Positions 4,313 through 20,913 of a stretch of 64,000 nt of DNA are shown here, in pieces. The first letter of the stretch is position 1. Each line of letters begins with the position of its first letter. The stretch is taken from positions 1 to 64,000 of the forward strand of contig JALEFZ010000069.1 of assembly GCA_022760475.1 (NCBI GenBank), given 5' to 3'. The notes below the pieces were generated by a model. The model searched no databases and was not told the origin of the DNA. It worked only from the letters and a program-made list of their open reading frames with translations. Source of the stretch: Bacteroidia bacterium (lineage in GTDB: Bacteria; Bacteroidota; Bacteroidia; J057). The position numbers and the translations under genes are program-made.

Positions 4313-5548
4313 ATGAGAAATGATCTTCCATTTATTCAAAAAAAAGAGCAATTGTTTTATCTGAAAGGCAATCCTCACTTTTTCTTGGGGACAAATTTTT
4401 GGTATGGAGCAAATCTTGGATCTTTGGGAAAGGGAGGAGACCGAGAGCGCTTAATCCGTGAACTGGATCTACTTGCCTCTCTTGGATTAAATAACCTAAG
4501 GGTAATGGCATTAAGTGAAGGTGGTCCTGGCACTCCTTGGTGTGTCCAACCAGCCATTCAAAGTGAGCCTGGCGTATTCAATGAAGAACTTTTGTTGGGC
4601 TTGGATTTTCTTCTGGATGAAATGAGAAAACGGAACATGTTTGCGGTGATGGTATTGGGAAACTTTTGGCCATGGTCAGGAGGAATGGCACAATACCTCT
4701 CCTGGGTTCAGAATTCAAAAATCCCCTACCCTCCTCCTGCAAAGAATGGCAATTGGGCGAGATATCAGTTATACACATCAAGCTTTTATTCAAATAAAAA
4801 AGCCAAGAAACTATACTGGAGGGCTGTTGATAGAATCCTCAGTCGAGTAAATTCCATCAATCAAATTCCGTATAAGGAAGATCCCTCAATTTTCTCATGG
4901 CAATTGGCAAATGAGCCCAGGCCTATACTCAGCCGCCCTGCTTACCTTAAATGGATTCGTGATAGCATCCTTTTTATCAGAGAGCGGGATACCAATCATC
5001 TTCTAAGCCTCGGTAGTGAAGGCAGTACCTCCTCCAGGTGGGCTGGAACCAGGTTTTTAAGGGATCATTCCCTCAAGGGAATTGATTATGCCACCTTTCA
5101 CCTTTGGGTACAGAACTGGGGATGGTATGACCCCACAGATGCTGAGAATAGTTTCGAGACAGGGCTAGAAATGGCAAAGGACTACTTTCGTTCTCATATA
5201 AATGATGGTCAAAAAACTGCTAAGCCATTGGTTTTTGAGGAATTTGGTATCGCCAGGGACGAAAACTCTCATGATCCCAAAAGCAGTACCCGGATAAGGG
5301 ACCAATACTACCGCGAGCTATTTTCTCTTTCCCTCGAGCAGGCGAAAAAAGGAAAACTATCTGGCCTGAATTTTTGGTCATGGGGAGGCTTTGGCAGGCC
5401 CAAAGAGCCTAAAGCTATCTGGAAAACTGGAAATGATCTGATAGGAGATCCACCTCATGAGCATCAGGGCTGGTACTCTGTCTATGACAAAGACCATTCA
5501 ACCCTTGAAGTTATCAAGGAATTCAGTCAAAAATTCAATTTAATTTAG
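4313..5548 (+). CDS. Glycoside hydrolase family 5, beta-mannanase-like
   Basis: The 411-residue protein matches the GH5 mannanase layout. FFLGTNFWYGANLGS near residue 23 is the typical opening, LNNLRVMALSEGG lies near 60, and WQLANEPR carries the predicted acid/base Glu201. FHLWVQNWGW is a substrate-cleft motif, and LVFEEFG carries the predicted nucleophile Glu310. FWSWGGFGRP follows near the C-terminus. Endo-mannanases hydrolyse beta-1,4-mannosidic bonds, but other GH5 substrates are possible. The coding sequence starts with the catalytic domain: I see no signal peptide or lipobox, and no better in-frame start upstream. That is unusual for a polysaccharide-degrading enzyme of this phylum and suggests action on imported oligosaccharides. 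Confidence 0.87.
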   Translation: MRNDLPFIQKKEQLFYLKGNPHFFLGTNFWYGANLGSLGKGGDRERLIRELDLLASLGLNNLRVMALSEGGPGTPWCVQPAIQSEPGVFNEELLLGLDFLLDEMRKRNMFAVMVLGNFWPWSGGMAQYLSWVQNSKIPYPPPAKNGNWARYQLYTSSFYSNKKAKKLYWRAVDRILSRVNSINQIPYKEDPSIFSWQLANEPRPILSRPAYLKWIRDSILFIRERDTNHLLSLGSEGSTSSRWAGTRFLRDHSLKGIDYATFHLWVQNWGWYDPTDAENSFETGLEMAKDYFRSHINDGQKTAKPLVFEEFGIARDENSHDPKSSTRIRDQYYRELFSLSLEQAKKGKLSGLNFWSWGGFGRPKEPKAIWKTGNDLIGDPPHEHQGWYSVYDKDHSTLEVIKEFSQKFNLI

Positions 5549-7820: not shown

Positions 7821-8121
7821 ATGTTTAAGATAAAATTAGATTCAAAGGTAAATCCTCCAGAATAAGGGAACATCGAAATAGGGTGTTCCCATTTTTTTTG
7901 CCAAGCCATCGCCATGGGGAATGAAATCATAAAGAATTTTAGGGGAGTTGTCCATAACTTGAGGTAAAGACAGCATTAAGACAAAATCAAATGAGATCCT
8001 ATTTAACATAATAATAAGAGTGCTAAAAATTATTTGCAAATCTTCTTCAATTCTCTTTTGGATAAATTTTAGCTTTTCCAAAGATTTCTTAGTTTCCTCC
8101 TCGTTTAAAATACCTACTTGT
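7821..8121. other. Intergenic region with terminator and GH97 promoter
   Basis: The stretch holds the terminator at 7866-7899 and, further right, the expected promoter region of the GH97 gene. A minus-strand open frame crosses it, but that frame runs through the terminator and into the GH97 signal peptide region, so I do not call a gene. Confidence 0.4.
7866..7899 (+). terminator. Rho-independent terminator after the lytic transglycosylase
   Basis: GGGAACA (7866-7872) pairs with TGTTCCC (7884-7890) across an 11-base loop. An eight-T run follows at 7892-7899. Confidence 0.8.
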
Positions 8122-10092
8122 ATGTCAAGAATTTGCTTCCTACTGATCTTACTATTTACAATCCAATCTCTTTGGGCTGAAACCTTTGTAGAAAAAAGCC
8201 CTGATGGTACCACCAGGCTTACCATCAAGGTGGACGACAATATTACTTATGAGATTCAAAAGGATAATAAAGTTATCCTGGACCACTCTGCAATCCAGGT
8301 TATCTGGGACAATGGCATTGACATGCGAAAGGAGCAATTGAGAATTAAGAAGGTAAAGCGGAGCGAAAGGCGGGGTTCCATAAAAGCAAAAATTCGTCCG
8401 GCAGCCAGAATGCCATATTCTTACAATGAAATTTATATCATTTTTGAGGAGTCCTATGACCTGGTTTTCAGGATTTATGACCAGGGTGTAGCTTACAGAT
8501 TTATCTCCAGGCTTGATAAAAAGGAAGAACAGAAAGAACTAATTGTAGTCTCTGAGAAGTCTACCTTCAACCTTCCTGGAAATCCCTTGCTATACTACCC
8601 AAAAGTGAAAAAATTCCAGAACTCATTTGAAGAAAATTATTTACCGCTTAAAAAGTCCCAACTGGAGCTCAAAACCATGGCCCTCACTCCTACCCTCATC
8701 AAATCTGAGGCGGGGCCGTACATGCTTATTTCAGAGGCTGACTTGAGAGACTATCCGGGCATGTACCTAAGGCCTACCGGAACAGGATTGGAAGCTGTTT
8801 TTCCCCGGTATGTCCGTAAGGAATCCCAGGAGTTTCTTGGGAAAATGGGAGTTGGAATGGCAGTCGTAAACAACATGAAGGCTCGGAAAAGAGAGAAATA
8901 CCTTGCCCAAACCAAGACAAATAGAAACTTTCCCTGGAGAGCCATCCTGATTTCTAATGATGCCAAATCTTTAGCTACCAACAACCTCATATATGCACTT
9001 GCACCTAAACCTGAGATCAAAAATACATCATGGATCAAGCCCGGAAAAGTAGCTTGGGATTGGTACCATGATTGGAGAATACCAGAATTGTCATTCAAGC
9101 CTGGTATAAATACAGAAACATACCTTTACTACATTGATTTTGCGGCTAAAAACAACCTGGACTACATTAATCTGGATGAGGGTTGGGCAAAAAATACCGA
9201 TTTAACAGATATCAATGACGATATAGATATCGAAAGAATTGTTGCTCATGCGAAGAAGAAGGATGTAGGTGTCTTTCTATGGATGATTTGGTGGGTATTG
9301 GAAGAAAATATGGAAGCACACCTCGACCAATTTCAAAAATGGGGTATTGCTGGAATCAAGGTAGATTTTATGGATCGTGATGACCAAAGGGTGGTTGCCT
9401 TTTACGAAAAACTGGCCAAAGAAGCTGCCAAACGAAAATTGATGATCAATTACCATGGCTCTTACAAACCGACTGGACTTGCCATGGCCTATCCCAATAT
9501 CATCAACCGTGAAGGTGTTGTGGGACTCGAAAATAATAAGTTCTCCAAAAGATGTACCCCTGTTCACAATTTGACCATTCCGTTTACCAGAAATGTAGTT
9601 GGCCCCATGGATTATACCCCGGGAGCAATGAGGTATTCCACACCTGAAAAGTTCAAGAAGAACTGGAAATATCCAAAGGCAATGACTACCCGTGCACAGC
9701 AATTGGCCATGTATGTGGTTTATTATGGACCTCTTCAAATGATTTCTGATGCTCCTACCCTCTATCCCCAAGAAGTACTAGATTTTCTCGCCAAACTTCC
9801 TACAATTTGGGATGAAAGCATTTGTTTAGAGGCAGCTATTGGGGAAAATATCATCATGGCCAGGAGAAATGGCAAAGATTGGTACATTGGAGGGATGACT
9901 GCTTCTAAGGCGCATAAGGTCAGTGTAAAACTGGACTTTTTGAGTGGAGGCGAATATGAAGCAGTCCTCCTAGGAGATGGGGAAAAGCTGGAAGATTTGA
10001 AAAAAGTCGAGAAAGTTGTCAGGAAAAATGAAGAACTGAAACTCACAATGGAAAGAAATGGCGGATTTGTAATGGTCTTGCGCAAAAAGTAG
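8122..10092 (+). CDS. Glycoside hydrolase family 97 (alpha-glycosidase, SusB family)
   Basis: The 656-residue exported enzyme starts at ATG 8122, where a good signal peptide begins (hydrophobic core ending SLWA). An upstream in-frame ATG at 8020 would bury it. The N-terminal beta-sandwich shows SPDGTTRLTIKVDDNITYEI. The barrel shows VAWDWYHDWRI, the calcium-site-like NLDEGW, and AGIKVDFMDRDDQ, and the family ending YVVYYGPLQMISDAPTLY is present. Asp415 in KVDFM sits where retaining GH97 alpha-galactosidases carry their nucleophile, whereas inverting SusB-type alpha-glucosidases do not. A retaining alpha-galactosidase-like activity is therefore more likely, by analogy only. It probably acts in the periplasm. 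No SusC/SusD neighbours are present. Confidence 0.93.
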   Translation: MSRICFLLILLFTIQSLWAETFVEKSPDGTTRLTIKVDDNITYEIQKDNKVILDHSAIQVIWDNGIDMRKEQLRIKKVKRSERRGSIKAKIRPAARMPYSYNEIYIIFEESYDLVFRIYDQGVAYRFISRLDKKEEQKELIVVSEKSTFNLPGNPLLYYPKVKKFQNSFEENYLPLKKSQLELKTMALTPTLIKSEAGPYMLISEADLRDYPGMYLRPTGTGLEAVFPRYVRKESQEFLGKMGVGMAVVNNMKARKREKYLAQTKTNRNFPWRAILISNDAKSLATNNLIYALAPKPEIKNTSWIKPGKVAWDWYHDWRIPELSFKPGINTETYLYYIDFAAKNNLDYINLDEGWAKNTDLTDINDDIDIERIVAHAKKKDVGVFLWMIWWVLEENMEAHLDQFQKWGIAGIKVDFMDRDDQRVVAFYEKLAKEAAKRKLMINYHGSYKPTGLAMAYPNIINREGVVGLENNKFSKRCTPVHNLTIPFTRNVVGPMDYTPGAMRYSTPEKFKKNWKYPKAMTTRAQQLAMYVVYYGPLQMISDAPTLYPQEVLDFLAKLPTIWDESICLEAAIGENIIMARRNGKDWYIGGMTASKAHKVSVKLDFLSGGEYEAVLLGDGEKLEDLKKVEKVVRKNEELKLTMERNGGFVMVLRKK

Positions 10093-13710: not shown

Positions 13711-14283
13711 ATGATGAAGTTAACCTCAGCCCTATTATTGATCCTTAGCTCAGTATTGTCAAGTTTTGCCCAGCAAAATCAGGCAGAAATTCTTGATCAC
13801 CTTCTTCAATTTGAAGGTCGATGGAGCCTGGTTTCATCTTCATTAATATTATCTCCTGCTCCACCAGATTTGGATACAGCAAAGTTTGTTTTAAACATGG
13901 AATGTACCTTGGGAAAGGATAGCATGTCTATTCATTGTCAATTTGATGGGAGCAAAGAAATTCTAAAAGAGGTCGTAAAATCTCATGGGCAAGAGTTATT
14001 TGTCCTAGAGCCCAAAGAACAGTTGGTTTACAAACTAAGCGGAGTAAGAAACCTGTCTAGCAAGCAAGAGTTAAATGCCAGCTTTGTAACTTTGGGTAAA
14101 GGGCTATTTTCTCCTAATGGTACCCTCTTGATCACTGAATACCTCGTTGGAATAGAGGGTCCCGTGGGCAAGCATAATTATGAATGGCTACAGGTCAACC
14201 TTCTTAAAGAGAGCTCGATTTATTATGATGAGGAAGGGAAAGAATTAAGGAAAACTGAGTGGTTAATGAAAAAGATTCCCTAA
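13711..14283 (+). CDS. Exported protein of unknown function
   Basis: The 190-residue product has a Sec signal peptide (about residues 1-20, ending SSFAQ). The mature domain begins DHLLQFEGRWSL, then alternates short polar strands, and ends EEGKELRKTEWLMKKI. This pattern resembles small lipocalin- or DUF1579-like beta-barrels (..GxW... near the start), but I cannot match it to a named family. It contains two cysteines, in the segments MECTLG and IHCQFD, which could form a disulfide in the periplasm. ATGATG at the start makes either methionine possible. Confidence 0.6.
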   Translation: MMKLTSALLLILSSVLSSFAQQNQAEILDHLLQFEGRWSLVSSSLILSPAPPDLDTAKFVLNMECTLGKDSMSIHCQFDGSKEILKEVVKSHGQELFVLEPKEQLVYKLSGVRNLSSKQELNASFVTLGKGLFSPNGTLLITEYLVGIEGPVGKHNYEWLQVNLLKESSIYYDEEGKELRKTEWLMKKIP

Positions 14284-14405: not shown

Positions 14406-17123
14406 ATGGCCAAGAGGAGCGTACTATTTGGGGGAATGCTATTCTTTCTTATCACACTCAGTTGTGTGGAATCAGGATTTTCCCAGGAATTAGATTTTTT
14501 TGTTTCCCCATTTCCTGATTATAAGGAAAGAGGGATTACATTACAGTCTCCTGTCCAAGACATAAATCTTCTTGATAATCCTGAAAAAAACCAGTGGGTT
14601 TTACCCCTTGAAGGGACTTGGGACTTTTGTTGGGTAGAAAATGCCAAAAATTACCTAAGCCCTGACGAAATTTCCAGACTGAAATGGGATGCAATTGGTC
14701 TGCCTTCCAATTGGCAAATAGTTCCGAAATATGACAATCCCGTTTTTGGGAAAGAGCAAGGAAATCGGGGAGGAAGTAGCTTGGGAGTCTACAGAAAGTC
14801 ATTCATCCTACCCGAGTCATGGAGAGGTGGCGAAACTTATTTGAGGATCGAGGGTGGAGGATCTGAATTTCAAATATTAATCAATGGAAAATTGATCAAA
14901 ACCATCAATTCTGGAGGGATGGGTTTGAGTGTCGCACTTACTCCTTTCCTTAAACCTGGCGCCAATGAATTGAACATTCAGTTGCCTTTTAAATCAAGCT
15001 CAAACTCTCAGATTCCATTCCATTGGCAGTTTGCAGGATTAGACAAGAAAGTCTACCTGAGTTGTCACAAGACAGCGCTCATCGATCAACTCTACTTTAA
15101 TGGAAACGTAAAGGGTGCTTTTGATTTAAAATGTAGGATAAAAAGTCTGAATGGAAGGTTACCGAAGGGTAGTCAACTGCAATTAAAATTCACAGATAAA
15201 CAGAATAATGTTATTTTTTCAAAGGCTGAAAAACTTAGGGCGAACCATTCAGAGAATTTAATAGAAATCTCCAATAAGCTCCCCTACGTCTACCCCTGGT
15301 CTGCAGAATCCCCAAATGAATATACCTTGGAACTCTCGCTTGTAGACAATAGAAACAGGATTTATTCCTACACAGTAAAAAAAGTAGCTTTTAGAACATC
15401 TACCTTCTCGGAACAAGGCCTTACTGTAAACGACAAAACTCAAAAGATTAAAGCTGTCTGGTATAGAACTTTCCATCCCGCTAAGGGCTATGCCATGACA
15501 AAAGATGACTATAAGACAGATCTTAGCATGATGAAGGCCAAGCACATCAATGCTATATACTTAAAGAAATTGGCAAGTCCTGAGTTGTACAAACTTTGCC
15601 AAGAGATGGGGATTTACGTCATAAGTGATCTAAGGGAAGTAAGATCGAAAGCTCTCCAAAAAAGGCGCCTGGATTGGGAGCAACAATTTCCGGCCATCAT
15701 CCTTAATATTTTTTCTTCCTCTCCCTCCTTTTCAAAAAAGAATACAGCCAACACCTCATTTGAAGGATTTACCAATGATTCCTACTTTTTTGATCCCACA
15801 TTTACTTTAGGAGACGCAAGGGAGCAATTGGCTAGCTTAAAAGAAATCAAAGCTGTAAATGTACTTGGAGCCTGGGCAGACCAGGCATTGATAGATCCTG
15901 CTGGAAAGGAAGAGGGAAAACTTTCCTATCAAGGAAACTCACGATCAAAAGGCTGGAAATACCCTCAGGTGATGGATGGAATGGTAGATGCCAACCGCAA
16001 TCCTCAGCCTGAACTAGAACTGTTAAAGGACTATTACGCCCCAGTACAATTGAGCTGCTTCAAAGATTATTTGGTCTTAAAACATGATTTCGAATTTCGA
16101 AATCTAAGCACTATTGAATTATTGTGGAAGTACAAAAGTGATAAAGGTATCAGGGAATTTAAGTCAAAGTTGCCTCCTTACTTTCCTAACTTTTTGTATA
16201 AAATAAAATATCCTTTCGAATCTGTAGGAGAAAACGAATGCCTGGAAGTGTGGGCAGTTTCCGAAAAAGATAATTCCCATATATTTGGTCAGGGGAATTT
16301 CTGTACCCTTAGCCCTCCTGCCCAAGCTTCCAGCAAACTAAATCAAGAAATTCGAATTCTGGAATCCATTACCAACCTGGATATCATGACGCCCTCTTTT
16401 AGCCTTTCTTTTGATAAGGGAGTAAATATGCTGGAAAGCATGCGAATTGGAAAAAATGAAATCTTATCTTCCCCACCCATTTTTAGGCTAGCCCAGAATA
16501 GTGATTTAAATGAAAAACTGAGCTTGATCATGAAAAACACTGTAAAAAACAGTGGCATGGAGGAATGCCAAGTATTCCTGGATGAAGTTGACGTCAGAAA
16601 GAAATCGAGAGAGGCTATTGAGATCATCTACGAAGGCAAGCTCTTTTCCAAAAATGAATTGAGTCATCAATTTGTCGTAAGTTATACCGTATCATCTTCC
16701 TCTGAAATTGAAGTCAATATCACGGTTAAATCTCTTAAGGATCAGGCAATGGATGTGGAACAGGTATGGAATTTCGAATTGGCAAGAGGATTTATAAACT
16801 GGAAAACTCCTTATTCAACTCCAAAAAGTAACTACATTTCGAATTTTCAGTATCCTTTTCTTATTCCATTGTATCCCCAAAGAACTGCAAATGCAAGCTG
16901 GTTGGAAGTTTCCCCCTTGGATGAAGCATGGAGCTTGGTATTCCATTCTGAAAAACTACCCCCATTTGCTATTACCCATGTAGAGCTAGAAGATTGGCAT
17001 GCAGCAGAACATAGAAGTCTTCTTAAAAATTCCAGGAATAGCTACCTATCTCTTGGTCCTTTGAAATCTAGTGAAAGGAGTTCTTCTATTTCTTACAAAC
17101 TCTTAATTAATACTGGAAATTGA
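14406..17123 (+). CDS. GH2 beta-galactosidase homologue lacking both catalytic glutamates (predicted pseudoenzyme)
   Basis: The 905-residue exported protein follows LacZ domain order. A sugar-binding domain has LEGTWDFCW and IGLPSNWQ; a jelly roll has VYRKSFILP; an immunoglobulin-like domain ends VAFRTSTFSE. Remnants of the TIM barrel follow (AKHINAIYLKKLASPELYKLCQEMGIYVISD), with VLGAWADQALI near residue 490, and then a beta-sandwich like the small-chain domain (SFDKGVNMLESMRIG). At the acid/base site, where LacZ has SLGNE, the sequence is IFSSSPS (about residues 436-442). At the nucleophile site (CEYAHAMGN in LacZ) it is FDPTFTLGD (about 461-469). The segment between them is shortened. The fold is retained but glycosidase activity is unlikely. 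The signal ends near GFSQ; an atypical lipobox (TLSC) is an alternative. Confidence 0.82.
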   Translation: MAKRSVLFGGMLFFLITLSCVESGFSQELDFFVSPFPDYKERGITLQSPVQDINLLDNPEKNQWVLPLEGTWDFCWVENAKNYLSPDEISRLKWDAIGLPSNWQIVPKYDNPVFGKEQGNRGGSSLGVYRKSFILPESWRGGETYLRIEGGGSEFQILINGKLIKTINSGGMGLSVALTPFLKPGANELNIQLPFKSSSNSQIPFHWQFAGLDKKVYLSCHKTALIDQLYFNGNVKGAFDLKCRIKSLNGRLPKGSQLQLKFTDKQNNVIFSKAEKLRANHSENLIEISNKLPYVYPWSAESPNEYTLELSLVDNRNRIYSYTVKKVAFRTSTFSEQGLTVNDKTQKIKAVWYRTFHPAKGYAMTKDDYKTDLSMMKAKHINAIYLKKLASPELYKLCQEMGIYVISDLREVRSKALQKRRLDWEQQFPAIILNIFSSSPSFSKKNTANTSFEGFTNDSYFFDPTFTLGDAREQLASLKEIKAVNVLGAWADQALIDPAGKEEGKLSYQGNSRSKGWKYPQVMDGMVDANRNPQPELELLKDYYAPVQLSCFKDYLVLKHDFEFRNLSTIELLWKYKSDKGIREFKSKLPPYFPNFLYKIKYPFESVGENECLEVWAVSEKDNSHIFGQGNFCTLSPPAQASSKLNQEIRILESITNLDIMTPSFSLSFDKGVNMLESMRIGKNEILSSPPIFRLAQNSDLNEKLSLIMKNTVKNSGMEECQVFLDEVDVRKKSREAIEIIYEGKLFSKNELSHQFVVSYTVSSSSEIEVNITVKSLKDQAMDVEQVWNFELARGFINWKTPYSTPKSNYISNFQYPFLIPLYPQRTANASWLEVSPLDEAWSLVFHSEKLPPFAITHVELEDWHAAEHRSLLKNSRNSYLSLGPLKSSERSSSISYKLLINTGN

Positions 17124-17317: not shown

Positions 17318-17347
17318 CCGGGGATTTAATCATCCTCGGTTTTTTTT
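17318..17347 (+). terminator. Rho-independent terminator after the GH2-like gene
   Basis: CCGGGGAT (17318-17325) pairs with ATCCTCGG (17332-17339) with one G-T pair. Eight T bases follow at 17340-17347. It lies 195 bases past the stop and overlaps the last codons of the convergent acetyltransferase gene. Confidence 0.75.
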
Positions 17348-17802
17348 ATTTGTAATTCAAAAAAGCTGATTCCAACTGTAGGATTCTGGTTGTACCTAGG
17401 AATTTCATAAAATCCTAAAGATTGATATAAGGATCTTGCTTTGAGCATATTGGGATGGGTATCCAACCTAATTACTTCGAATTTTTTGCTGGATATCTTG
17501 ATGATTTCCTGGCTGAGTGCTTTTCCTACACCTTTACCTTGATGCTTTGGCAATACAAAAAGTCGCTTCATTTCACAAATTCCTTCCCCAATCTTTCTTA
17601 TTGCAACACATCCTATGGCTGCTGGTATGGCCTCCTCACTCCATGCCAGTAAAGAAGCCTCATAAGCTTTCGGAAAATTTTCTATCTCCGAAGCATAATT
17701 CCCCAGGGCTTTATCATGTCCTCTTAATTCTCCATAAATCCTCAATAGGGATTTGAAGGCCAATATATCCTCATTTGACTTTACAGGCTTAATTCTAAAC
17801 AT
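17326..17802 (-). CDS. GNAT-family N-acetyltransferase
   Basis: The 158-residue protein shows the GNAT core: CEMKRLFVLPKHQGKGVGKALSQEII at about residues 85-110 contains the acetyl-CoA loop (Q..G.G.ALS), and LDTHPNMLKARSLYQSLGFYEIPRY is the family's beta5-alpha4 ending. MKRLFV followed by QGKGVG is typical of the PhnO/YjgM-like cytosolic group. Its acceptor is unknown. The gene lies downstream of an orphan minus-strand terminator at 17829-17863, so its own promoter must lie within the 26 bases between that terminator and its start, or it depends on read-through. Confidence 0.87.
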   Translation of the reverse strand: MFRIKPVKSNEDILAFKSLLRIYGELRGHDKALGNYASEIENFPKAYEASLLAWSEEAIPAAIGCVAIRKIGEGICEMKRLFVLPKHQGKGVGKALSQEIIKISSKKFEVIRLDTHPNMLKARSLYQSLGFYEIPRYNQNPTVGISFFELQIKKTEDD

Positions 17803-17828: not shown

Positions 17829-17863
17829 AAAAAAAAGGCTTAGCTCCAATCTGGAACCAAGCC
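17829..17863 (-). terminator. Strong orphan minus-strand intrinsic terminator
   Basis: Read on the minus strand, GGCTTGGTTCCA (17863-17852) pairs fully with TGGAGCTAAGCC (17848-17837) using two G-U pairs and a three-base loop. It is followed by eight T bases (17836-17829). On the plus strand the two wobble positions become mismatches and there is no T run, so the signal is directional. Confidence 0.8.
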
Positions 17864-17915
17864 CTAACTAGCCTATGAGGAATAAAGAACGAAGGTCTAT
17901 AAAAAGATACAAATA
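17829..17915 (-). ncRNA. Candidate small RNA or attenuated leader
   Basis: A minus-strand transcript must end at the 17829-17863 terminator, yet no minus-strand gene lies between it and the divergent gene at 18334. A TATTTG stretch around 17907-17913 on the minus strand resembles the Bacteroidota -7 element (TA..TTTG). Initiation there would give an RNA of roughly 80 bases. The right limit is a guess. It could equally be a leader whose terminator regulates the acetyltransferase gene that starts 26 bases further on. Confidence 0.35.
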
Positions 17916-18333: not shown

Positions 18334-19476
18334 ATGAAACCATATATATCCACAATTTTAATTTTTACAGTGCTGTTGGCTTCTTGTAACCAACAGAAAG
18401 ACAATTCCTTGGAAGAAAATGTAGTCAAAATGGAGGGAGAATTAAGTTATTTCTCATGCTCCGATAGCCTCCTAAATCATAGATTCAATATTATCAGAGA
18501 ATCCTTTGAAGAGAAAATGGATTTGAGCAAAGCTGAATGGCAAAAAGCCCTTCCCTACTTTAGGTTAGTCAAACCGCTTCTTGATTCCTCCATTACACCT
18601 GCTGCTGTGGATATGCTCTGGAATACCTACTTGCAGACTGGCAATAAGCTGGATATCATCAACCATCCAATATGGGCGCAAACCCCGGATAGTTTATTTG
18701 ATGACTCAGAAGCATTAGGGGATCAATTAATGCTTCATGAAAAATACCAAAGGCTTGCCTATATGGCCATTGCTCTCAAGAAAAATGAATTTGCACAAAA
18801 ATCCCTTCAGATTTCTACCAACATCTATCAAAGTCAGGTGAAGGATAAATATAGCAACGAAGAACAAAGTTTGGGTGATGGCCTTGATCTGGATCTACTG
18901 GCTCTTTCTATGGATCTCATCCCCAAAGACGATGCAAGAGCAATCGTTAGAAACGTCTTTGAGAAATTGCTGGAAGATGGGCTAGATCCTTCAGCTTTTC
19001 CCCTTAGCCAAGCATCTCTTCTTTCCACACTATCTAAGTATGAAAAAACAGACTTGGCTTATAGGATTCAACCCAATATGGATGACGCTGCTGTGGCCGC
19101 ATGGATGATCAAGGATTTAGCAGGTATTCGTCCAAGTTTAAATGCACCTGGATTTAGAAATCCAATTATCCAACCCAAGCTATTGCCAGATTTGGACTTC
19201 GTCGAAGGTCAGTTGAAAACCCCTTATGGTCTTCTATTCATTCGTATTGAAAAAAGTAAACCAATGAGGATACAGGTGAAGATTCCAGCCAAGGCAACCC
19301 TTGTGTTACCAGTTAAAGATCCAACACGGGCCAGTATCATGGCTAATAAGACCAGACTTTGGATGGGTGGGAAACCTCAACCTTCACCTCCAGGTGTAAC
19401 TTTTCTGGATGTAAGCAAAGATGGAATCATTGTTGAGTTGGCTAAAGGCAAATACACCTTTCAAATTAAAGAATAA
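18334..19476 (+). CDS. Lipoprotein with the C-terminal part of a GH78 alpha-L-rhamnosidase (probably non-catalytic)
   Basis: The 380-residue product starts at ATG 18334, giving a lipoprotein signal with lipobox LLASC; an ATG nine codons upstream is less likely. The mature part resembles the second half of the GH78 (alpha/alpha)6 barrel. LDLDLLALSMDLIPKDDARAIV matches the helix pair usually reading NALAL..GLVPEEDR. AAWMIKDLAGIRPSLNAPGF is nearly the family consensus, and TPYGLLFIRIEKSK...KIPAKATLVLPV is the GH78 C-terminal beta-sandwich. The first half of the barrel and the conserved GATT.WE block with a catalytic acid are missing. A binding or structural role on the membrane seems more likely than hydrolysis. 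Confidence 0.68.
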   Translation: MKPYISTILIFTVLLASCNQQKDNSLEENVVKMEGELSYFSCSDSLLNHRFNIIRESFEEKMDLSKAEWQKALPYFRLVKPLLDSSITPAAVDMLWNTYLQTGNKLDIINHPIWAQTPDSLFDDSEALGDQLMLHEKYQRLAYMAIALKKNEFAQKSLQISTNIYQSQVKDKYSNEEQSLGDGLDLDLLALSMDLIPKDDARAIVRNVFEKLLEDGLDPSAFPLSQASLLSTLSKYEKTDLAYRIQPNMDDAAVAAWMIKDLAGIRPSLNAPGFRNPIIQPKLLPDLDFVEGQLKTPYGLLFIRIEKSKPMRIQVKIPAKATLVLPVKDPTRASIMANKTRLWMGGKPQPSPPGVTFLDVSKDGIIVELAKGKYTFQIKE

Positions 19477-19482
19477 GATCTA

Positions 19483-19881
19483 ATGACCAAGCTCATAGAT
19501 AAACTCGCATGGATTGAAATTCAGGATGGGAAAATCCTTAGTACCCTGAGCAAGGGAAAAAAATTGTTTTACATCCCAGGTGGAAAAAGAGAAGCCGGAG
19601 AGTCTGATCATGAAGCACTCATTAGAGAGATCAAGGAAGAATTAAGTGTTGACCTTCATCCAGAAAGCCTCCGCTACCTAGGTACATTTGAAGCTCAGGC
19701 AGATGGAAAGGATGAGGGAGTTCTCGTACGTATGACTTGTTATACGGGGAGTTATAAGGGAGAACTTCAACCAGACCACGAAATCGAGAAAATAGTCTGG
19801 CTGGACTATCTGGAAAAGGAAAAGATAGCCCCTGTAGACAAAATCATTTTTGATTATTTGAATTTTAAAGGATTACTATAA
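19483..19881 (+). CDS. Nudix hydrolase
   Basis: The 132-residue protein contains a nearly canonical Nudix box at about residues 34-56: G.....E.......RE..EE with serine in place of the usual glycine before the last hydrophobic residue. The motif binds Mg2+ and hydrolyses a nucleoside diphosphate linked to another moiety. YIPGGKREAGES places it near MutT/ADP-ribose-type enzymes, but the substrate cannot be inferred. It starts 6 bases after the GH78-like lipoprotein gene and is probably in the same transcript. It is cytosolic. Confidence 0.9.
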   Translation: MTKLIDKLAWIEIQDGKILSTLSKGKKLFYIPGGKREAGESDHEALIREIKEELSVDLHPESLRYLGTFEAQADGKDEGVLVRMTCYTGSYKGELQPDHEIEKIVWLDYLEKEKIAPVDKIIFDYLNFKGLL

Positions 19882-19923: not shown

Positions 19924-20913
19924 ATGAACCAAAAATCCAGAAGAGGCTTTATCAAAGTTGGAGCTCTAGCAGGTACTTATGCCCTGTTTTCTCCATTCTT
20001 GTTTCAATCATGTAAGCAGGATGAAAAGGAAGAAGAAGAGCTGCCCAAAAATGAATCCCAGCTTAGAAAAGCATGGTTTGAAATTTCACTTGCCGCTTAC
20101 TCCCTTCATAGGGCATTTGAAGCTGGTACCGTGAAAAATATGGACTTCCCAAGAATAGCCAAAGAAAAATTTGGGATAAATGCAGTTGAACTCCTTAATA
20201 TTTACTTTATGGATAAGGCACTCGATAAAGTATATCTCAAGGATTTCAAGCAAATGACAGATGGTCTGGGGGTCAAAAACCTCTTGATCATGATAGATCG
20301 AGAAGGCGATTTGGCTACTCCGAATTCCCGCAGTCGCAAAGAAGCGGTTCTCAACCACTTCAAATGGGTTGAAGCAGCTGCAAGCCTCGGATGCCACTCA
20401 ATACGTGTAAATGCAAAAGGGGAAGGTACACGCGATCAAGTCAAAGAAGCAGGAATCGATGGGCTATCTCAGTTGGGGAAATTTGCCCAAAACTTGAACA
20501 TAAATGTAATTGTTGAAAATCATGGAGGCTATTCCTCAGACGGTGGATGGCTTTCCAGTATGTTGAAGGCGGTAGATATGCCAAATGTCGGAGCACTCCC
20601 TGACTTTGGAAACTTTTGTATCAAGGGTACTCCGCGAGGTAAGGGAGAGTGTGAAGATGGTTATGACCGATATAAGGGGGTAGGCGAATTAATGCCCTTT
20701 GCCAAAGGCTTGAGTGCAAAGAGCTATACCTTTGACCAAGACGGGGAGGAGACAACCATTGATTATAAACGGATGCTCAAAGTTGCTCAAGATGCAGGTT
20801 ACAAGGGCTATATTGGAATAGAATTCGAAGGGGACGAACTTTCGGAAGAGGAAGGTATATTAGCCACAAAGCGGCTGCTTGAAAAGTATCAGACCAGGAA
20901 CCTGTCCGAGTAA
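19924..20913 (+). CDS. Tat-exported sugar phosphate isomerase/epimerase-like TIM-barrel lipoprotein
   Basis: The 329-residue product starts with the twin-arginine motif SRRGFIKVG and a hydrophobic stretch that ends in the lipobox-like LFQSC. It is therefore probably exported folded and lipidated. The mature domain belongs to the xylose-isomerase-like/AP-endonuclease-2 TIM barrels. NAVELLNIYF, GCHSIRVNAKGEG, NVIVENHGG (metal-ligand Glu), NVGALPDFGNF and GYIGIEFEGDE follow in order, keeping the Glu/Asp/His positions typical of the metal site. Enzymes of this group isomerise or epimerise sugars or inositols. It follows the Nudix gene by 42 bases and may end an 18334-20913 operon. Confidence 0.85.
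   Translation: MNQKSRRGFIKVGALAGTYALFSPFLFQSCKQDEKEEEELPKNESQLRKAWFEISLAAYSLHRAFEAGTVKNMDFPRIAKEKFGINAVELLNIYFMDKALDKVYLKDFKQMTDGLGVKNLLIMIDREGDLATPNSRSRKEAVLNHFKWVEAAASLGCHSIRVNAKGEGTRDQVKEAGIDGLSQLGKFAQNLNINVIVENHGGYSSDGGWLSSMLKAVDMPNVGALPDFGNFCIKGTPRGKGECEDGYDRYKGVGELMPFAKGLSAKSYTFDQDGEETTIDYKRMLKVAQDAGYKGYIGIEFEGDELSEEEGILATKRLLEKYQTRNLSE

Follow-up and report, generated by a model that had tools for sequence, protein, structure and literature searches.

The gene at 18334-19476 of the window, the whole stretch of 64,000 nucleotides analysed here, encodes a lipoprotein that is derived from GH78 and in which both catalytic blocks of this family are missing. We consider it likely, with some reservation, that the product is a lipid-anchored, foldable pseudoglycosidase of GH78 descent which acts non-catalytically. 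Its features are as follows.

18334-19476, forward strand: GH78-derived lipoprotein ORF, from ATG at 18334 to TAA at 19476, 380 amino acids, frame intact.
18334..18384, forward strand: signal peptide MKPYISTILIFTVLLAS, read directly from the translation, with the lipobox Cys18 next to it (18385-18387).
18445..19125, forward strand: slimmed (alpha/alpha) barrel, residues 38-264.
18517..18618, forward strand: site of the first missing block, where residues 62-95 (34 residues) bridge profile positions 208 and 314.
19078..19089, forward strand: site of the second missing block, where residues 249-252 (4 residues) bridge profile positions 469 and 507.
19126..19473, forward strand: GH78 C-terminal beta-sandwich (PF17390), the best-conserved part of the protein, with a pLDDT of 92-98.

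The GH78 origin is visible in several kinds of comparison. Pfam Bac_rhamnosid_C (PF17390) matches residues 264-333 with an E-value of 5.7e-8 and 32.9 bits (curated cut-off 22.1), and Bac_rhamnosid6H (PF17389) matches residues 122-246, which correspond to profile positions 163-288 of 339, with an E-value of 5.3e-6 and 26.4 bits (cut-off 24.5). The HMM search that had been proposed as a check on the original prediction thus placed both GH78 models above their curated cut-offs. A profile built from 34 relatives and spanning the barrel and the C-domain scores 95.6 bits in three matching stretches, residues 21-61 (profile 167-208), 96-248 (314-469) and 253-379 (507-626), and phmmer searches against the frames of relatives reach E-values down to 7e-24. 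From the Pfam, relatives and phmmer matches it therefore follows that the ORF is derived from GH78, well beyond chance. The N-terminal sandwich domains of GH78 are absent from it.

According to the original prediction, only the later half of the barrel and the C-terminal sandwich followed the GH78 consensus, and a short linker stood in place of the first half. The sandwich and the later barrel are borne out by the two Pfam families, but the restriction to a half barrel is not. Residues 21-61 still show the first strand and helix of the barrel (SYFSCSDSLLN; FxCSDSLLN), a stretch that by itself scores a weak 4.8 bits, and the later helices are recognisable too, the second profile match starting at residue 96 (WNTYLQTGN). 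In a global hhalign comparison, 371 residues spanning the entire length are aligned with 99.8% probability. The barrel is shorter by about 70-85 amino acids ahead of the base block than in active relatives (residues 38-249, that is 212 residues, versus 279-312).

The predicted structure agrees with this layout. The AlphaFold2 model was built with 34 alignment rows of full-length GH78, which favour a GH78-like barrel, and it shows an (alpha/alpha) barrel and a C-terminal beta-sandwich with a pLDDT of 82 and a pTM of 0.81. Helices run from residue 45 to residue 262 and the sandwich is confident; residues 63-85 have low confidence and are not confidently placed. The best ten Foldseek matches are all rhamnosidase structures. 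VIA-align gives a Z of 31.6 against 6i60 (342 aligned residues, rmsd 7.0), covering the whole barrel and the C-domain (chain 442-943), and a Z of 31.0 against 3w5m (327 aligned, rmsd 2.9), whereas the next-ranked families, the GH94 phosphorylases, are found well below GH78 at a Z of about 17. A GH78-type barrel and sandwich had been expected and were found at a Z of about 31, but the barrel spans the whole length and is not a partial half. The model thus suggests a slimmed helical barrel that runs over the full span but lacks the two catalytic blocks, and after it the C-terminal sandwich.

In the first missing block, about 70-71 amino acids or profile columns are gone, including the general-acid motif PTDCPQRDERxGWxGD, and 34 residues face about 105 columns. 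In the second, about 33 columns are gone, including the general-base motif GATTxWExW and the conserved NH, and 4 residues face about 37 columns. The absence of the GATT.WE block had already been noted in the original prediction and is confirmed by the profile gap from 469 to 507, in which all motif columns are gaps, among them the near-invariant P, G, G, T, T, E, W, S, N and H columns of the base block. Consequently the ORF has neither a general acid in PTDCPQRDE or an equivalent nor a general base in GATTxWE, as an active GH78 would. A GD pair is retained at residues 129-130, and Gln131 stands where the GDW motif has its Trp. By their place in the 3w5m alignment, Glu636 and Glu895 of SaRha78A presumably fall in the acid and base motifs. 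These two are the general acid and general base of SaRha78A (PMC7263609), and KoRha grips rhamnose via the equivalent acid and base together with a Trp, an Asp and a His (PMC4690510). Both papers assign catalysis or rhamnose binding to residues that correspond to the lost motifs. Judged from the sequence, GH78 catalysis and the known mode of holding rhamnose appear effectively excluded, because key residues of the rhamnose pocket vanish with both blocks. A glycosidase homologue without catalytic residues is what is called a pseudoglycosidase, and the protein is one in this sense.

The lipoprotein signal of its own that had been claimed for the protein is present: by reading, MKPYISTILIFTVLLASC is a Sec-type leader with a lipobox Cys, as in Bacteroidota lipoproteins, and its lipobox, LLASC, is compatible with the consensus. 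No K-(D/E)2 surface-export motif is found near +3 after Cys18, where the sequence CNQQKDN has a K at +5 and one acidic residue. The LES-type rule of K-(D/E)2 near +3 after the Cys was defined in Capnocytophaga (PMC5080379), and such signals vary across lineages.

Elsewhere, the relatives of this protein have the full GH78 length of about 900 amino acids. We found no relative of equal length among 60 relatives, the 22 genomes of the order, and samples of 395 genomes each from the class and the phylum (these sets overlap; about 700 genomes in total, with no other member of its own genus among the genomes searched). There was also none among 80 named loci, where frames are mostly 750-1200 amino acids long with the motifs present, and the short ones are either cut off by a contig end or broken. 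An alignment of all rows proved too variable for scanning, and a scan of the named genomes with the window peptides returned no equal-length orthologue. The search for orthologues of equal length by which the original prediction was to be checked therefore came back empty. In the genome itself, which is 100% complete, GH78 profile search detected no second GH78. An upstream GH78 remnant or split gene was considered and ruled out, since a six-frame search of 10-24 kb of the window revealed no N-terminal GH78 piece near the ORF and there is no second genomic GH78.

The absence of equal-length relatives raises the question whether the gene is simply dying, a GH78 pseudogene in which in-frame deletions chanced to leave the frame open and which has no protein function. 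The barrel is indeed eroded, with 11 of 21 aligned near-invariant residues lost against at most 14% in any relative, and the GH2 neighbour described below is eroded too, as in a region freed from selection. Against this, the 380 codons contain no stop and neither do the 905 codons of the neighbour, every removal is in frame, and an intact signal peptide has been kept. Preservation is strongest in the C-terminal domain, where 8 of 10 alignable near-invariant residues are retained (2 of 10 lost, versus at most 11% in relatives). Neutral substitution up to the observed barrel loss, about half of the residues, would give about 13 stops where 0 are observed, an estimate that depends on a barrel alignment of about 20% identity which is uncertain in places. 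GC by codon position is gene-like, and the codon-usage score does not discriminate, one wrong frame scoring equally high. Because barrel residues were lost without the stops that neutral drift predicts, the ORF is probably a retained pseudoenzyme, and we regard a dying gene as unlikely, although it is the strongest of the rival explanations. The view that this is not simply a broken gene is supported by the open frame and the residue-retention argument.

Three other explanations would leave the protein functional. A lectin could hold a glycan uncut in the old barrel cleft, by analogy with glycan-binding pseudoglycosidases (PMC7828330); the (alpha/alpha) barrel scaffold is retained, and carbohydrate-related genes are found nearby (the GH97 at 8020-10092 and the sugar-isomerase-like gene at 19924). 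But the ancestral ligand is an unlikely one, as the rhamnose-holding residues are gone (the acid with the Trp and Asp of its block, the base and the NH histidine) and the Trp of GDW is Gln131, and among GH28 proteins there is a pseudoenzyme that no longer binds its substrate (PMC8213348). We rate such a lectin as rather improbable. Still less is to be said for a new enzymatic activity, unrelated to the old one, on the slimmed barrel, and we think it very improbable: the scaffold keeps its GD pair at residues 129-130, but nothing indicates a new active site, and no conserved motif is definable without orthologues. Finally, the large profile gap at residues 62-95 might suggest a half barrel completed by dimerisation or by a partner polypeptide that supplies the first half, as in a split enzyme. 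Helices are recognisable on either side of this gap, however, the model spans the entire barrel, and no frame found by GH78 profile search of its own genome supplies the acid block; the other strong matches there, C49 and C94, are different kinds of helical-barrel protein, both of full length. This split enzyme is the least probable of all.

We return to the preferred reading, that of a retained pseudoglycosidase. A GH78 alpha-L-rhamnosidase ancestor would have lost its N-terminal sandwich domains. Two further blocks, which held the general acid and the general base as well as most of the rhamnose pocket, would have been removed in frame. The barrel scaffold would remain foldable, as would the C-terminal sandwich. 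Going by the lipobox, the protein would be exported by Sec and lipidated at Cys18, and with no Capnocytophaga-type surface signal it would most likely be found on the periplasmic side of the outer membrane. There its surface may act as a non-catalytic binder or scaffold for another envelope protein or a glycan, a binding or scaffolding role that we put forward tentatively, at rather less than even chances. The loss of the ancestral pocket makes protein binding or a new surface more plausible than a rhamnose lectin.

The surroundings contain a second glycosidase derivative as well as several ordinary genes.

8020-10092: GH97, with full-length Pfam matches.
14406..17123, forward strand: LacZ-type GH2 derivative of 905 amino acids, upstream of the GH78-derived ORF by 1.2 kb.
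17326-17802, reverse strand: GNAT gene, between the GH2 and GH78 derivatives.
19483..19881, forward strand: NUDIX hydrolase (PF00293, E 4.4e-12), 6 bp downstream of the GH78-derived ORF.
19924..20913, forward strand: xylose-isomerase-like TIM barrel protein (PF01261, E 2.4e-19).

The GH2 derivative has kept its sandwich domains, and its TIM barrel is shortened by about 100 amino acids. Both catalytic glutamate motifs, WSLGNE and CEYxHAMGN, have been lost from the interval of about 15633 to 15869. The best-matching stretches of the NCBIfam LacZ-type models stop at residue 408, and matches in other genomes end at about 408-426. A LacZ-type protein of the same genome aligns with it over nearly the full length, with the stretches that carry WSLGNE and CEYSHAMGN gone. 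In 64 near-invariant barrel columns there are 20 gaps and 27 changes. The model has a mean pLDDT of 58 and is confident only in the N-terminal domains and the early part of the barrel. Like the GH78-derived protein, this one looks like a retained pseudoenzyme. A GH2 match with stops in genome G014 was set aside as a chance match, read as antisense to another gene. The region is not uniformly eroded, because the GH97 at 8020-10092 has Pfam matches over their full length. It is conceivable, if improbable, that a GH78 barrel and a LacZ-type GH2, two unrelated folds at one locus, underwent parallel loop removal to become a non-catalytic pair for binding or sensing in the envelope.

The NUDIX gene is possibly co-transcribed with the GH78-derived ORF, and the scan found no forward-strand terminator-like site between the two, which is weak evidence. 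A conserved operon was rejected, as the NUDIX relatives in genomes G004 and G005 have different upstream genes. The protein encoded at 19924-20913 has a leader that is both twin-arginine-like and lipobox-like (SRRGFIK...FQSC; SRRGFIKVGALAGTYALFSPFLFQSC) and relatives at 34-56% identity in ten genomes, its own included. Just upstream of the GNAT gene, a 14-pair stem with a T-run on the reverse strand (17835-17865 of the window) could be an attenuator or a terminator; promoter and terminator scans gave no more than chance, and stem and T-run sites are no commoner than in shuffles. Pfam has no match to the proteins at 13711-14283 (190 amino acids) and 4313-5548 (411 amino acids).

The closest known systems are the GH78 alpha-L-rhamnosidases 6i60 from Dictyoglomus thermophilum and SaRha78A (3w5m/3w5n), which have the same barrel and C-terminal sandwich with homology over the whole span. 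Unlike these proteins of about 900 amino acids, ours has 380 and lacks the acid and base blocks and the N-terminal sandwiches. That a small GH78 can stand alone is seen in KoRha from Klebsiella oxytoca (4xhc; PMC4690510), a short two-domain GH78 with no extra sandwiches, but KoRha is active and keeps Asp222, Glu486 and the rhamnose pocket, whereas the protein described here is without both blocks. YKL-39, klotho and CyRPA (PMC7828330) and the beetle GH28 pseudoenzymes (PMC8213348) likewise have a glycosidase fold and no catalysis, and glycan or protein binding has been described for pseudoglycosidases (PMC7828330, PMC8213348). In the beetle cases the residues were lost by substitution (PMC8213348), in contrast to the loss of whole blocks from a GH78 in a bacterial lipoprotein. 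Pseudoglycosidases are thus already known as a kind; a limited literature search found no GH78 pseudoenzyme, and none stripped of both active-site blocks beside a likewise altered GH2.

Automatic annotation would count the GH78 and GH2 derivatives as a rhamnosidase and a beta-galactosidase, and so as degradation capacity. With whole blocks removed and not single residues changed, the protein would illustrate from nature how much a glycosidase scaffold can lose and still be foldable.
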